Assembly: GCF_009827515.1 (NCBI RefSeq)
Contig: NZ_WTYO01000001.1
Coordinates: forward strand, 663,501 to 727,500
Length of the DNA: 64,000 nt
Source of the DNA: Pelagerythrobacter marinus
GTDB lineage: Bacteria; Pseudomonadota; Alphaproteobacteria; Sphingomonadales; Sphingomonadaceae
Reading direction: 5' to 3'
Below, in pieces: positions 1,955 through 52,626 of the stretch (positions are counted from its first letter, which is position 1; every line of letters starts with the position of its first letter). The notes under the pieces are model-generated. The model saw only the letters and a program-made list of their open reading frames with translations. It did no database searches and was not told where the DNA came from. The position numbers and the translations under genes are program-made.

Positions 1955-4048
<2,094 letters not shown>

Positions 4049-4141
4049 GGCTGGGCAAGCGTCTAGGGGCGGCGCCTGATTCACCTCGGTGCCGTCCGCG
4101 ACTTGGTGAAATTCAATCTGACAGACAGAGGTTACAAGCAA

Positions 4142-5317
4142 ATGGCCAAGGAAAAATTCGAGCGGAACAAGCCGCACTGCAACATCGGCACCATCGGTCA
4201 CGTCGACCACGGCAAGACCACGCTGACGGCTGCCATCACCAAGGTGATGGGCTCGGCGGTCGATTTCGCGAACATCGACAAGGCGCCGGAAGAGCGTGAG
4301 CGCGGCATCACCATCTCGACCGCGCACGTCGAATACGAAACCGATGCGCGCCACTACGCGCACGTCGACTGCCCGGGCCACGCCGACTACGTGAAGAACA
4401 TGATCACCGGTGCCGCCCAGATGGACGGCGCGATCCTGGTCGTGAACGCCGCCGACGGCCCGATGCCGCAGACCCGCGAGCACATCCTGCTCGCCCGCCA
4501 GGTCGGCGTGCCGGCGCTGGTCGTCTACATGAACAAGGTCGACCAGGTCGACGACGAGGAAATCCTCGAACTCGTCGAGCTGGAAGTGCGCGAACTGCTC
4601 AGCAGCTACGACTTCGACGGCGACAACATTCCGATCGTCAAGGGTTCGGCCCTGGCCGCGCTCGAAGGTCGCGATCCGGAAATCGGCGAGAACTCGATCA
4701 AGGAACTTATGGCGGCGGTCGACGAGCACATCCCGCAGCCCGACCGTCCGGTCGATAAGGACTTCCTGATGCCGATCGAGGACGTGTTCTCGATCTCGGG
4801 CCGCGGCACGGTCGTCACCGGCCGCGTCGAGACCGGCAAGGTCAACGTCGGCGACGAAGTCGAGATCGTCGGCATCCGCGACACGCAGAAGACCACGGTC
4901 ACCGGCGTGGAAATGTTCCGCAAGCTGCTCGATTCGGGTGAAGCCGGCGACAACATCGGCGCCCTGCTGCGCGGCACGGGCCGTGACGACGTCGAGCGTG
5001 GCCAGGTCCTGGCCAAGCCGGGTTCGGTCACCCCGCACACCGAGTTCAGCGCGGAAGTCTACGTGCTGTCGAAGGACGAGGGCGGCCGTCACACGCCGTT
5101 CTTCGCCAACTATCGTCCGCAGTTCTACTTCCGCACGACCGACGTGACCGGCGAAGTGATCCTCCCCGAGGGCACCGAGATGGTCATGCCGGGTGACAAC
5201 GTGACGATCGGCGTCAAGCTGATCGCGCCGATCGCGATGGACGAAGGTCTTCGCTTCGCCATCCGTGAAGGCGGCCGCACCGTCGGTTCGGGGGTTGTCA
5301 GCAAGATCACGAAGTAA
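4142..5317 (+). CDS. tuf: elongation factor Tu
   Basis: EF-Tu delivers aminoacyl-tRNA to the ribosome. The start is set at ATG 4142 ([12 protein letters not shown]) because AGAGG at 4127-4131 is 10 bases upstream and the family begins here; an in-frame GTG at 4103 would add 13 unconserved residues. The product has 391 residues with G1 GHVDHGKTT (19-27), DCPGH and NKVD. It is the last gene of the str cluster and is followed by strong hairpins. Only one copy is visible; many proteobacteria have a second elsewhere. Confidence 0.98.
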
Positions 5318-5328
5318 TATAGGCGCGC

Positions 5329-5366
5329 GACCGGCGGGGGATTCGTCTCCCGCCGGTCCGAATTTT
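5329..5366 (+). terminator. terminator-like hairpin after tuf
   Basis: A perfect 10-bp GC-rich stem pairs 5329-5338 with 5349-5358 and is followed by CGAATTTT. It is positioned to end or attenuate the str transcript before rpsJ. Confidence 0.65.
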
Positions 5367-5375
5367 CGAAGGGGG

Positions 5376-5424
5376 GCCGCCCCTGACCGGTTTTCCGGGA
5401 GGCGGGGCAGGCCTTTCTTTTTTG
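5376..5424 (+). terminator. second terminator-like structure before rpsJ
   Basis: A GC-rich region with an inner CCGG-TTTT-CCGG hairpin and flanking GCCCC/GGGGC pairing runs into a T-rich tract (TTTCTTTTTT). Together with the hairpin at 5329-5358 it suggests that str and S10 transcription are at least partly uncoupled. Downstream, AGCTGC and GCAGCT form a further small stem in the rpsJ leader. Confidence 0.5.
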
Positions 5425-5483
5425 TTGGGAGTGAAGCTGCTTCGGCGGCGCAGCTCCTAGGCTCTTTCGCATCGGTATAGGTA

Positions 5484-5795
5484 ATGGAAGCTCAGAACAT
5501 CCGCATCCGCCTCAAGGCGTTCGACCACCGCGTTCTCGACCAGGCCACTGGCGAAATCGCAGACACCGCGCGTCGTACGGGTGCTCTTATTCGTGGCCCC
5601 ATTCCCATGCCGACGCGCATCGAGAAGTTCACCGTGAACCGCGGCCCGCACATCGACAAGAAGTCGCGCGAGCAGTTCGAGGTGCGTACCTACAAGCGGC
5701 TGCTCGACATCGTTCAGCCCAACGCCCAGACGGTCGACGCGCTGATGAAGCTCGACCTGGCCGCGGGCGTCAACGTCGAGATCAAGCTGGCCTGA
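5484..5795 (+). CDS. rpsJ: 30S ribosomal protein S10 / NusE
   Basis: S10 is a 30S head protein and, as NusE, part of the antitermination complex. The 103 residues are full length ([20 protein letters not shown]), with the RGPIPMPTR loop. The Shine-Dalgarno sequence is poor (GGTATAGGTA before the ATG), unusual for such a highly made protein. It opens the S10 cluster but is separated from rplC by 281 bases, where most bacteria have a very short gap. Confidence 0.97.
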
Positions 5796-5831
5796 GTCGG
5801 CTCTGACCGAAATCCTCGCGACGGCGAGGGT

Positions 5832-46957: not shown

Positions 46958-49897
46958 ATGGCACTTACCCAGATTTCCGTCCGCGGCGCGCGCGAGCATA
47001 ACCTCAAGGGCATCGATATCGATCTGCCGCGCGACAGCCTGATCGTGATCACCGGCCTTTCCGGCTCGGGCAAGTCGAGCCTCGCCTTCGACACGATCTA
47101 CGCCGAGGGGCAGCGGCGCTACGTCGAATCGCTCAGCGCCTATGCGCGCCAGTTCCTCGAGATGATGCAGAAGCCCGATGTCGAGCATATCGACGGGCTC
47201 TCACCCGCGATCTCGATCGAGCAGAAGACCACCAGCCGCAACCCACGCTCCACCGTCGCCACCGTTACCGAGATCTACGACTACATGCGCCTTCTGTGGG
47301 CGCGCGTGGGCGTGCCCTATTCGCCCGCCACCGGCCTGCCGATCGAGGCGCAGACCGTCTCCAACATGGTGGACCGGGTCATGGACTTGCCCCAGGGCAC
47401 GCGGCTCTACCTGCTCGCGCCGGTGGTGCGCGGGCGCAAGGGCGAATACCGCAAGGAACTGGCCGAATGGCAGAAGGCGGGCTTCACCCGCGTGCGGATC
47501 GACGGCGAACTCTACGCGATCGAGGACGCGCCCGCGCTCGACAAGAAGTTCAAGCACGACATCGAGGTCGTGGTCGACCGGCTCGCGGTGAAGGCGGGCA
47601 TCGAGACCCGCCTCGCCGACAGCTTCGAAACCGCGCTCAAGCTCGCCGAAGGGCTCGCCTATGTCGATCTCGCCGATGGCGCGGTGCCCGGGCGCGAGGG
47701 CGAGGGGGACACCGCCGGCGGCGCGATGAAGGGCGCGGGGATTCCCGCCAACCGCATCGTCTTTTCGGAGAAGTTCTCCTGCCCGGTCAGCGGCTTTACG
47801 CTCGAGGAGGTCGAACCGCGGCTGTTCTCCTTCAACGCGCCGCAGGGCGCCTGCCCGACCTGCGACGGCATCGGCGAGAAGCAGCTGTTCGACCCGCGGC
47901 TGGTGGTCCCCAACGAGGCGCTCAGCCTCAAGAAGGGCGCGGTGGTGCCCTGGGCGAAGAGCAACCCGCCGTCGCCCTATTACATGCAGGTGCTCGCCAG
48001 CCTCGCGAAGGAATACGAGTTCGACCTGACCACCCCGTGGCAGGAGTTCGACCAGGAAATCCGCGACATCATCCTGTTCGGCACCAGGGGCCGCGCAATC
48101 CCGCTCACCTTCAAGGACGGGCGCAAGCAATATACCGTCAACAAGCCGTTCGAGGGCGTGATCGGCAATCTCAACCGCCGCATGCTCCAGACCGAGAGCG
48201 CGTGGATGCGCGAGGAGCTGGCCAAGTTCCAGACCGCGCAGCCGTGTGAGACCTGCGGCGGCAAGCGGCTCAACCCCAAGGCGCTCAGCGTCAAGATCCC
48301 CGGCCCCGCGGGCCCGACCGACATCGCCACCCCCACGCAGATGAGCGTCGCCGATGCCAAGGCGTGGTTCCTCGGGCTCGACGATCACCTGACCGAGCAG
48401 CAGGCGCAGATCGCGAAGGCCATCCTCAAGGAAATCAACGAGCGGCTGGGCTTCCTCGACAATGTCGGGCTCGACTATCTCAACCTCGACCGCACCAGTG
48501 GCACGCTATCGGGGGGCGAGAGCCAGCGCATCCGCCTCGCCAGCCAGATCGGCAGCGGGCTGTCGGGCGTGCTCTACGTGCTCGACGAACCCAGCATCGG
48601 CCTGCACCAGCGCGACAACGACCGGCTGCTCGAAACGCTGAAGCGCCTGCGCGATCTCGGCAACACCGTGATCGTGGTCGAGCACGACGAGGACGCGATC
48701 CGCGCCGCCGATTACGTGGTCGATCTCGGCCCCGGCGCTGGCGTCCACGGGGGCGAGGTGGTCGCCGAAGGCACGCTGAAGCAGGTGCTGAAGAACAGGA
48801 AATCGCTCACCGCCGCCTATCTCACCGGCCGCCGCGAGATCGCGGTCCCGGCCACGCGGCGCAAGGGCAACGGGCACAAGCTCACCGTCCACGGCGCGCG
48901 CGCGAACAACCTGCGCGACGTCACCGCCTCGATCCCGCTGGGCACCTTCACCTGCGTCACCGGCGTCTCGGGCTCGGGCAAGTCCAGCTTCACCATCGAC
49001 ACGCTCTACGCCTCCGCCGCGCGCGAATTGAACGGCGCGCGCATCGTCGCGGGCGCGCACGACAAGGTTACCGGGCTCGAATATTGCGACAAGGTGATCG
49101 AGATCGACCAGTCGCCCATCGGCCGCACCCCGCGCTCCAACCCGGCCACCTACACCGGCGCCTTCACCCAGATCCGCGACTGGTTCGCGGGCCTCCCCGA
49201 AAGCCAGGCGCGCGGCTACAAGCCCGGGCGCTTCAGCTTCAACGTCAAGGGCGGCCGCTGCGAGGCGTGCCAGGGCGACGGCCTCATCAAGATCGAGATG
49301 CACTTCCTGCCCGACGTCTACGTCACCTGCGAACAATGCGACGGCAAGCGCTACAACCGCGAAACGCTGGAGGTGAAGTTCAAGGGGCACTCGATCGCCG
49401 ACGTGCTCGACATGACGATCGAGGATGCGGAAGAATTCTTCAAGGCGGTCCCGCCGATCCGCGACAAGATGCATATGCTGAACGAGGTCGGCCTCGGCTA
49501 CGTCAAGGTCGGCCAGCAGGCGACCACGCTGTCGGGCGGCGAGGCGCAGCGCGTCAAGCTTGCCAAGGAACTCGCCAAGCGCAGCACCGGGCAGACGCTC
49601 TACATCCTCGACGAGCCGACCACGGGCCTCCATTTCGAGGACGTCCGCAAGCTCCTCGAAGTGCTCCACCGGCTGGTCGACCAGGGGAACTCGGTCGTGG
49701 TGATCGAGCACAACCTCGACGTGATCAAGACCGCGGACCATGTGCTCGACCTGGGGCCGGGCGGGGGCGTGCGCGGGGGTGAGGTCGTGGCGGAGGGGAC
49801 GCCGGAGGAGGTGGCTGCGGTCGAGGGGAGTTACACGGGGCAGTATCTGCGTCCGATGCTGGATCGCGCAACCCGGAACGAGCCTGCCCCGGTGTAG
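46958..49897 (+). CDS. uvrA: excinuclease ABC subunit A
   Basis: UvrA recognises bulky DNA damage and loads UvrB. ATG 46958 gives [20 protein letters not shown], the family start; AGGAA lies 11 bases upstream. The 979 residues contain two ABC ATPase halves (GLSGSGKSS at 33-41 and GVSGSGKSS in the second), two LSGGE signatures and CxxC zinc modules ([26 protein letters not shown]). A LexA box overlaps its leader, so SOS induction is expected. Confidence 0.97.
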
Positions 49898-50022
49898 GCT
49901 GGGGTCGGAGTAGATTGCCAAGGCGCTGGAGAGAGGTATTCAAAGCGACACCTCAAGCCGATGCTGGAGCAGCGGAGGGACGCGACGAAGTAATGCGAGA
50001 GCAGCGCAATACGTTACCTGAT

Positions 50023-51666
50023 TTACGATCGTGGAGGAAAGTGATGCCTGCCGTACCATGTGTCAGCTAGTTGCTCATCTAGGTGCATTATCACCCATGG
50101 TTGCGCGCGATAAGGCACAATAGTCAGGTAAGCCGCTAGTAGAGCTGGAAAAGGCTCAAATGCTTTTGCCAAGCTCCAATCGCTTAATCGCACGGCCTCT
50201 TCTATTTGTTCTAACCAAGTGCTGTCAAATATCTGTTGCCCGGAATTCTCGCCTTCTTTGGAATGCTGAGGCGAGAAAAAATCGTTGTCGGGCACCCGAA
50301 CAGACTCATGGAGGAGGTTGGAGTATACTCTCCAGAAATTCTTACATGTTTGCTTCCAGTTGCGTTTTGCTACCATTAAAAAAAGTGCTTTCGCGAAGTA
50401 AGATCGATTCAGCGCTATGTCGCGACTAATATCGCTTTTGTCTCCCACGATTCCTCCGGAAGTAAGGTAGAGGACTTCATCAAACCGATAGTATGGGGGG
50501 GAATTCGCAGCCAACGCGCTGTCTCGCCGACGCGCCGCCGAAATTACCGCTCCTAGCACCGAGATGAGAGCCAGATCGGGTTTACGCGTGGCATCCAGTT
50601 TTCGATATGCCCAGTATCGCACAATCATTGATGGTATGACGGCCTGACCCCAAAGGGTATTCGGGCCGAAGCTGTATTCTAGCAATTCTCTCAAGTAGGT
50701 TCGCTTCTCAGGGCTCAACTCCACGCCGAAGAGGACCAGGAACGCGCCTGCGTCAGCGATGAGGCGCCTTCTTTCGATCATAATGTCCACTTCGGCCAGC
50801 GGGTTCCGCTGTGCCCACATTAGCTTTGGATCGTAGTCAAGTTCAATCGCTTCAGATATTAAGCTGTTTGCATGCTCCGCCGCGACTTCTAGATACTCGG
50901 CAATCAAAACTGTGCCATCATCCCTGTCCGCAAGGGGGATACATCTAACTGCTGCGAGAACACTGATTAAAAACATAGAGTAGTGATCTTCGCTTTCGCG
51001 CCACGGCCTTTTTAGGATCTCCGAGAATAAGAGGCTAGCGGTAATGATCGCTCGCTTACGCGAGGCAGTCATCTTGTACGGGTCCTTCATGGCCTCCTCT
51101 ATCGAGGCTGATATAAGCTGGATGTCCGGTAGATCTCGCCCTTCATGGGTGTAGACCTTCAAGACACGGCTCATAGCTTCGGGAGAAGAGGGCCATACTT
51201 TCTCAATTTGAGGCGTAAAGCGATTTAAAAGGTTACCGCGAGACCAGTATTCGACCTTGCTTGCGGCAACTCCAGGTTCCCCGCAGTGCTTGGCTACATT
51301 CTCGAAAAGCACCATCGCCGCTTCGTCAATTTCGCCGTTCGTGCAAAAGACGAAAACATGTCTCTCGTTCTTGGTAGCCTGGTATGCGTCCGGTACGAAG
51401 CTAATCATACCCTCACGAAATTGCCCGAGCAGTGACTGGGCTTCCGACTTTGAAACACGCGTGCCCGGGTTCCCTTTTAACTGAATGGCATACAGGGTTC
51501 CATCTGGAGCGCGAGCGATTACATCCTTGCCAAACTCAAGAGCCGTGTGGCGCGTGTTGTGAAGAACGTCCCAACCTTCAGAAATCAGGAGCTGGACGAA
51601 GGCCGGCTGGTATTGCCTCTCAGACTGATTATCCAGCCAAGATTCGACGAGCTTGTTCGCGATCAT
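50023..51666 (-). CDS. Mrr-like nuclease-domain protein of a low-GC island
   Basis: The 547-residue protein is not a family I recognise as a whole. Residues 15-75 show a PD-(D/E)XK core of Mrr type: YQPAFVQLLISEGWDV, then FGKDVIARAPDG with Asp48, then YAIQLKGN with Gln62-x-Lys64. The remaining 390 or so residues look helical and match nothing I know. AAGG within the upstream gene gives a good RBS, and the two genes overlap by 38 bases. GC content (roughly 47%) is far below the flanks, a sign of transfer. A defence role is plausible but unproven. Confidence 0.7.
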   Translation of the reverse strand: MIANKLVESWLDNQSERQYQPAFVQLLISEGWDVLHNTRHTALEFGKDVIARAPDGTLYAIQLKGNPGTRVSKSEAQSLLGQFREGMISFVPDAYQATKNERHVFVFCTNGEIDEAAMVLFENVAKHCGEPGVAASKVEYWSRGNLLNRFTPQIEKVWPSSPEAMSRVLKVYTHEGRDLPDIQLISASIEEAMKDPYKMTASRKRAIITASLLFSEILKRPWRESEDHYSMFLISVLAAVRCIPLADRDDGTVLIAEYLEVAAEHANSLISEAIELDYDPKLMWAQRNPLAEVDIMIERRRLIADAGAFLVLFGVELSPEKRTYLRELLEYSFGPNTLWGQAVIPSMIVRYWAYRKLDATRKPDLALISVLGAVISAARRRDSALAANSPPYYRFDEVLYLTSGGIVGDKSDISRDIALNRSYFAKALFLMVAKRNWKQTCKNFWRVYSNLLHESVRVPDNDFFSPQHSKEGENSGQQIFDSTWLEQIEEAVRLSDWSLAKAFEPFPALLAAYLTIVPYRAQPWVIMHLDEQLADTWYGRHHFPPRS

Positions 51667-52258
51667 ATTCAGCCTTCTTTTCGCATACTATCATAGACAA
51701 GCGCCGTTTGTACTCTGCTTTTTCGTGAGCCGATTGATTTCTATGCCTCTCAGCCATCCGCTCTATCTGCTGAGGTGTCAGCAAAATTGAGGGCGCTTGC
51801 CACTTCCCATCAGCATCGAAGGAGTGGGACATTGTAGACAAGGCCTCAAGGAGGAGTTCTTCGGACAACGGTTTGCCTTCTCCACTTATCACATTGCCGG
51901 ATTTATCTGCACCTTCGCTGATGGCATCGATGATCTGCTTGGCAGTGCTTTGCGCAAGCTGTTGTGCCATTTCCCACAGTTTCTCGAGTACATCTTGATA
52001 TGAAAACTCATCGATGGGGGCGATACGTATTTCTACAGAGCCTTCATGCTTTTCAATTTTCGTCTTATCTGTCTCGCCGCTTTCTCTCACAATCTCGCTT
52101 GCGGAGCCTTCAAAAATGCAGTGTCTCGCGATATCGGCAACGATTGGCTCGATCTCACCGACCATCTTTCGCATGATGTCGATGTTCGATTTCTCTCTTG
52201 TTGAGACAATTTTTTGGAAAGCCGGCAGCATGCTGAGAGCATAGCCGCTTTCCGCCAT
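51629..52258 (-). CDS. unknown partner protein of the Mrr-like island
   Basis: The 209-residue product has no domain that I recognise. It contains a predicted amphipathic segment (DVLEKLWEMAQQLAQSTAKQ, about residues 89-108) and a highly charged C terminus (AEYKRRLSMIVCEKKAEYDR). It has no signal peptide. The start is uncertain: no Shine-Dalgarno sequence stands near ATG 52258, and ATG 52231 is an alternative. Low GC and the 38-base overlap with the nuclease gene indicate that both were acquired and are expressed together. Confidence 0.65.
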   Translation of the reverse strand: MAESGYALSMLPAFQKIVSTREKSNIDIMRKMVGEIEPIVADIARHCIFEGSASEIVRESGETDKTKIEKHEGSVEIRIAPIDEFSYQDVLEKLWEMAQQLAQSTAKQIIDAISEGADKSGNVISGEGKPLSEELLLEALSTMSHSFDADGKWQAPSILLTPQQIERMAERHRNQSAHEKAEYKRRLSMIVCEKKAEYDREQARRILAG

Positions 52259-52626
52259 TACAAGTCAGGCTGGTCTCCCTTTTCCACATCTTAGTGACCT
52301 GCTAAATTCTGACCTACACGCCTCTCACTTATACTAGATCCGTTCGCTGCCCCACAAGCAGACGAACCAATGCACAATCTTCCTTTAGACCCTCAAGCAC
52401 CGGGCGCGGGCCGGCTGCGCTTTGTCGCACGGGCTCAGATGCGCCGTCGCCCCCTGCCTCAAGTGCGCCTCGGTTACTTTTGACAGACTGGCGGTTCGGA
52501 GGCGCAGTGTCGGTACGCCCTCCGACCTTCACCCACCATCCACCCCAGCACCCCACAAACCATTTTCCTACAGCCCCCTGCATCGCATAAGTGGTTCGGT
52601 TCGTTCATCCATGCGGAGTCCGAACC
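52259..52626. other. intergenic boundary between the low-GC island and the HTH gene
   Basis: No gene is seen. The left 110 bases are low in GC and hold a promoter candidate for the island. GC content rises from about 52400 towards the HTH gene, so the right edge of the foreign DNA is probably between 52330 and 52480. No attachment-site duplication, tRNA or insertion sequence was recognised. Confidence 0.5.
52328..52357 (-). promoter_or_regulatory. candidate promoter of the two-gene island
   Basis: On the minus strand TTGTGG (52357-52352) and TATAAG (52333-52328) are 18 bases apart. The -10 is about 70 bases before the ATG at 52258. The match is moderate. Confidence 0.4.

Follow-up and report, generated by a model that had tools for sequence, protein, structure and literature searches.

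What is encoded by two overlapping genes of unusually low GC content that stand directly behind uvrA in the alphaproteobacterium Pelagerythrobacter marinus, and do they form a defence system? We addressed this question in a window of 64,000 nucleotides, the whole stretch of DNA that was analysed (positions 663,501 to 727,500 of contig NZ_WTYO01000001.1). An earlier sequence-only reading had proposed an accessory phage-defence operon consisting of a first gene without recognised domain and a second gene coding for an Mrr-like nuclease. Its gene coordinates and the overlap of 38 bases were confirmed on the minus strand, and the features of the locus are as follows:

51629..52258, minus strand: gene A (P0002), a partner protein of 209 aa, the founding member of the A family described here.
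50023..51666, minus strand: gene B (P0001), a 547-aa effector with a putative N-terminal PD-(D/E)XK (Mrr-like) nuclease and a helical C-terminal region.
51187..51666, minus strand: putative nuclease domain of B (residues 1-160), with Glu16, His40, Glu44, Asp48, Gln62, Lys64 and Gln82.
50026..51186, minus strand: C-terminal region of B (approximately residues 161-547), predicted to be mostly helical; homologous to OloB of the Olokun system and probably to the C-terminus of caspase-type effectors.
51629..51666, minus strand: overlap of A and B, 38 nt, out of frame, which would allow translational coupling.
49898 to about 52400-52500, no strand assigned: insert of low GC content that separates the 3′ end of uvrA from the following gene; the site varies among same-genus genomes.

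The pair has a GC content of 50.4% (51.1% for B, 48.3% for A) compared to 67.1% across the window: the low-GC patch is real, although the previously suggested value near 47% was too low. Only 8 of 618 windows of 2236 bp showed a GC content of 53.4% or less, and every one of them starts within 49701-50401. The uvrA reading frame (named by eye) ends at 49897; B is convergent with it and its end lies 125 nt from the uvrA 3′ end. No tRNA was detected in the window by ARAGORN.

Sequence searches of all 6 other same-genus genomes yielded neither A nor B, and a profile scan of their uvrA sites found neither gene as well. Alignment of the flanks and reading of the stretch between them showed that the interval between uvrA and the next gene holds different sequence in 5 of the 6 genomes (G004 stops at a contig edge, and the right flank of G005 is a match of 53 bases). 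At this position G003 carries a protein with an HD domain (Pfam score above the cutoff) and a neighbour weakly resembling poly(A) polymerase (below the cutoff), G002 a ParE toxin together with a low-GC ORF of no known kind, G005 and G006 lower-GC ORFs of no known kind, and G001 a 185-aa ORF of ordinary GC content. The genus varies at the 3′ side of uvrA, where five same-genus genomes have differing and often low-GC genes. A coiled-coil-like protein is also seen among the genes at the uvrA site in the same-genus loci (L077, L078, L079, L080, L082).

Outside the genus, Sphingomonas arenae (L022) carries its own A-B pair at a like place, again convergent with uvrA, and in another alphaproteobacterial genome (L019, 8058-12498) the pair follows uvrB after 46 bases on the same strand (both by eye). 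With the window, a uvr gene thus adjoins the pair in three loci, namely uvrA in two and uvrB in one, the names having been assigned by eye; visual inspection of the other neighbours listed revealed none. This proximity is what would be expected of a housekeeping accessory of DNA repair tied to nucleotide excision repair. However, the pair is missing from the other genomes of the genus, whose uvrA sites hold unrelated sequence, the other neighbours listed show no uvr gene recognisable by eye, and the GC content is low, which together make a repair role highly improbable.

A scan of genome contigs by alignment of three B proteins resulted in 30 loci, and in 30/30 an A-family ORF stands immediately upstream of B. 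L033 among them duplicates the record of the query locus L019 and was counted once; hence 29 loci are new, and the pairing holds in 29/29, which exceeds chance. The two genes therefore do occur together in other genomes, contrary to the outcome that would have refuted the sequence-only reading. Adding the window, L018 and L003 gives 33 distinct loci: in 33/33 the genes overlap by 32-53 nt in an identical frame relation, the start of B having been set manually so as to agree with the alignment. Starting from A instead, six genomes gave believable matches (G000, G051, G234, G334, G803, G969), in which the next gene is B in four cases and a caspase-like gene in two. The hosts of the B-scan loci include Sphingomonas, Caulobacter, Brevundimonas, Bradyrhizobium and others; further record titles name Beta- and Gammaproteobacteria, Marinimicrobia, Poribacteria, Pedobacter, Mycolicibacterium, Kribbella and more. 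Searches with A profiles yielded believable genomes in 3 of 385, 2 of 398 and 2 of 246; the samples overlap, and each count includes the window's own genome. The pair is rare and patchily distributed across several bacterial phyla.

We compared the distances within the A and B families over 22 pairs and found them to correlate with r 0.87, a value reached by 0 of 5000 permutations. Such a correlation is expected for co-inheritance, but could reflect shared ancestry alone. Between L025 and L031 the crude dN/dS was 0.21 (A) and 0.08 (B), and between L042 and L043 it was 0.15 and 0.12, respectively, with dS near saturation; the values of both genes are far under 1. The A-B pair is a real unit of two conserved coding genes.

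P0001 on its own gave no match in Pfam, PADLOC, NCBIfam or PDB, and single-sequence searches of the genome contig and viral contig collections returned nothing. A weak P0001 match in G157 was rejected as chance (66 residues with 4 stops). On plasmids one distant relative was found by tblastn, annotated as ‘restriction endonuclease’ on a Rhodococcus plasmid, with 31% identity over residues 1-157; this protein (P0003) passes the gathering score of the Pfam Mrr_cat family (PF04471; 22.8 vs 21). For a family alignment we used 29 of the 33 B genes, leaving out L028, L037 and L040 (two ORFs each) and L044 (short). Glu16, His40, Glu44, Asp48, Lys64, Gln82 and Gly111 are invariant in 29/29 proteins and Gln62 is kept in 28/29. 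The FGKD...QLK motif was numbered correctly from the outset, with FGKD ending at Asp48 and followed by Gln62 and Lys64. At E 0.01 the Mrr_cat profile matches 8 of the 29 members. B was not found in phage and viral collections. In L028, L037 and L040 (3 of 33 B genes) the A ORF is present and B is broken into two ORFs, which may reflect decay or sequencing error.

Structure prediction of B (AlphaFold2, 28 rows) gave a model with pLDDT 88.9 and pTM 0.79. Residues 1-141 are predicted to start with two helices and three strands, followed by helix, strand, helix and strand, an order expected for a restriction-endonuclease-like fold; beyond residue 141 the model is nearly all helix with two short strands, in line with the helical remainder of about 390 residues described before. 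Foldseek found no significant match of the model in the PDB: EcoO109I, the sole restriction enzyme among the best 50 of 489 rows, ranked 23 (E 1.1, probability 0.66). A profile of the nuclease domain run against the PDB returned chance matches, mostly kinases, which we discarded. As no fold was matched significantly in these structure searches, the assignment of the N-terminus as a PD-(D/E)XK nuclease draws on motif, sequence profile and predicted topology: it is good as far as motif and profile are concerned and no more than consistent as regards the fold, and it bears out the Mrr-type call of the sequence-only reading. B resembles the Mrr-type restriction endonucleases (PF04471) in the catalytic order Glu / Asp / Gln-x-Lys. 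Mrr itself carries a DNA-binding winged helix. In contrast, the nuclease of B would be N-terminal and is combined with a long helical C-terminus and a constant partner gene.

Olokun is a defence system. A 2026 review (PMC12926258) agrees with this role in a table and gives the mechanism as unknown. The PADLOC model of its OloB protein (PDLC03926) matches 7 of the 29 B members at E 0.01, with a best value of 4.3e-11. In order to compare the families directly, we collected OloB proteins from 299 genomes of the phylum of the window; of 5 strong matches a 45-residue fragment was dropped and four were used. Alignment of the B family with these four proteins by HHalign gave 98.3% and E 1.4e-14 over 419 columns. 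By this comparison B is a distant homologue of OloB, with the two families related along most of their length. Both systems consist of two genes, and the homology runs along the nuclease-like N-terminus and the helical region. There are differences, however: the B protein of the window (P0001) has no match to the OloB model, and the gene adjoining OloB is larger, with 300 to 497 aa in four loci (three perhaps cut by the end of the locus). A is unrelated to a profile of these genes, which we took as OloA by position (HHalign 0.7%), and none of five A proteins scanned matched the OloA models in PADLOC. As the OloB-like effector is combined with a different partner, we did not file the pair of the window as Olokun. 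The best, non-significant profile match to the C-terminal end of the presumed OloA (A15) is formed by A residues 41-82, the region of a beta hairpin.

The A family was aligned from 26 of 35 collected A genes, of which 33 stand with a nuclease-type B and 2 with a caspase; nine with uncertain starts were dropped. None of the 26 members matches Pfam at E 0.01, in agreement with the earlier statement that A has no recognised domain, and among 5 A proteins scanned no relevant PADLOC model was found. The predicted structure (pLDDT 84.9, pTM 0.61) contains two long helices (residues 87-120 and 177-208) together with a beta hairpin (residues 54-66); Foldseek searches of BFVD and PDB with this model gave no significant match. 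Conserved positions follow the pattern GN-(V/I) ... G ... DG ... P, and a basic C-terminal helix mostly ends in R-x-L. Matches of A to Pfam dATP-dGTP_PPHyd and to PADLOC Cas8f and CARF3 were dismissed as weak, the Pfam one not being common to the family. Weak A matches in G281 (neighbourhood read) and G571 (E 1.2 on rescoring) were regarded as chance.

A second kind of locus, in which A precedes an enzyme of another type, came from a P0002 search in 197 relatives. It yielded one further A gene (G051, E 1.2e-5), which overlaps by 4 nt with the gene of a 646-aa caspase-like protein standing in place of B. The arrangement of A before a caspase-like gene was observed in three loci: L006 (7072-9695), L007 on a Sulfitobacter plasmid (7983-10510) and L084 in G969 (3234-5806). 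Their caspase-like proteins measure about 630-650 aa and include an extended C-terminal region, and A and effector overlap by 4 nt in each case. The proteins of L006 and L084 are 73% identical to each other and each about 29% identical to that of L007; we therefore distinguish two caspase-type lineages. By tblastn the caspase-like domain of L007 matches 28 plasmid records including itself, and most of the other 27 are annotated as caspase family. AGHG and DAC motifs are present in the two proteins checked, and the two scanned against Pfam gave no match above threshold. The designation ‘caspase-like’ is accordingly a putative one, based on the tblastn relatives and the AGHG/DAC motifs. In viral contigs an alignment search did not find the caspase-type effector.

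In order to confirm that the proteins preceding the caspase-like genes are A proteins, we scored them with an A profile built without caspase-type rows: the three caspase-associated proteins reached 84-97 bits, compared to 9.4 for the best of 9000 shuffles and at most 2.7 for reversed proteins. The effectors appear to be linked through their C-termini. HHalign of the C-termini of nuclease-type and caspase-type effectors (29 vs 3 rows) gave 93% and E 2.6e-7 over 220 columns, and in HMMER the three caspase proteins scored 22.3, 9.3 and 8.1 bits, with 5.2 for the best of 3000 shuffles. An earlier comparison of the effector types with two-row profiles showed no link. Because the relation is seen with 29 and 3 rows and in the C-termini alone, we grade it as probable: the caspase-type C-terminus is probably related to the helical C-terminus of B, with few caspase rows contributing. 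A and the helical domain thus seem to be the constant elements, and the enzyme seems exchangeable. Type IV Thoeris is a caspase-containing defence system. The caspase-like domain of L007 is related to plasmid caspases, and at 5 of the 28 plasmid records, whose loci were inspected, an annotated TIR gene adjoins in 4. In contrast to the A loci, these 5 plasmid loci have no A-family gene by profile scan, and in the A loci the caspase continues into a long additional region and has A ahead of it.

Some pairs lie beside known defence genes. Two neighbours are PD-T7-1-like, L046 has a type III restriction enzyme and a TIR protein, L039 a type I/IIG enzyme, L003 a Hachiman-like helicase, and L030 a gene that looks like a restriction enzyme by eye and has no PADLOC match. 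The scan covered 79 hand-chosen of 124 near neighbours, and families are the best 25 of 67; having no control set, it provides context and carries no claim of enrichment. Many pairs stand between housekeeping genes and not in defence islands (by eye). In L045 (3484-9518) the pair adjoins genes resembling, by eye, head genes of Mu-like phages, possibly a prophage-borne copy.

The restriction-enzyme-like neighbours in L030 (by eye), L039 and L046 and the Mrr_cat similarity of B would also fit a type IV-like restriction system, in which modified or foreign DNA would be the direct target of B, with A as a DNA-binding or specificity subunit. We consider this quite unlikely, as A has no known DNA-binding domain and is also the partner of caspase-like effectors that have no nuclease. 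A toxin-antitoxin pair deserves somewhat more weight but is still unlikely: A would be the neutralising antitoxin of the nuclease toxin B, and the pair would serve addiction or stabilisation of an element, not phage sensing. A small gene overlapping a larger nuclease gene downstream, relatives on two plasmids and the ParE toxin gene at the equivalent site of a same-genus genome all agree with such a role. On the other hand, B is a large protein in which some 390 additional residues, mostly helical, are shared with OloB, the A family also pairs with caspase-like proteins, and several loci lie on contigs >1 Mb (L022, L026, L041, L042), so that the pair is not confined to plasmids.

Another class of multi-gene defence was considered. 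ABC-3C systems have an ABC ATPase component beside a middle component and an effector, and their families are present in Pfam. The insert of the window has no third gene of ATPase size, and the aligned A and B members gave no match to the ABC-3C families in Pfam; at the Rhodococcus locus a short gene for an ATPase lies upstream. No description of the pair was found in titles and abstracts of open PMC papers, a search that leaves subscription papers and preprints mostly outside.

The explanation we favour, and regard as reasonably probable, is a mobile two-component immune module that combines a regulatory part, made of A and the helical region of B, with an N-terminal nuclease effector as the swappable enzyme. 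It builds on two conserved coding genes with constant pairing and overlap, on the invariant nuclease residues, on the homology to OloB and on the presence of A beside two enzyme types. A would act as sensor together with the helical C-terminus of B, and the PD-(D/E)XK domain, as killer or restriction enzyme, would be kept inactive in a complex of A and B, whose genes may be translationally coupled. Upon sensing of phage infection the nuclease would be released and DNA, its presumed substrate, would be cut; in the sister loci a caspase-like protease would sit on the same regulatory part. The defence role proposed before is supported: the OloB homology, the known defence genes among the neighbours of some loci, the patchy distribution and the effector swap suggest an anti-phage function. 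Both the OloB link and the caspase-type variant were absent from the sequence-only reading and were found in this analysis.

More broadly, and with confidence a little short of even, these loci may belong to a so far unrecognised immune module family that crosses phyla. A new protein of ~200 aa (A, with no known fold relative) and the conserved helical domain would form its common sensor, onto which a nuclease or a caspase-like protease is grafted as killer, and Olokun would be a cousin in which a large sensor replaces the small one.

Taken together, the A-B pair looks like an undescribed anti-phage system whose nuclease side is related to Olokun. For annotators it provides two profile families: A, for which neither a Pfam model (26 members) nor a relevant PADLOC model (5 members) gave a match, and B, covered in part by Mrr_cat and OloB. 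A small relative of Olokun with a 200-aa partner and two kinds of effector would offer a tractable route to the signal that these systems detect: the sensor should reside in the constant parts, and effector swapping would therefore show it directly.
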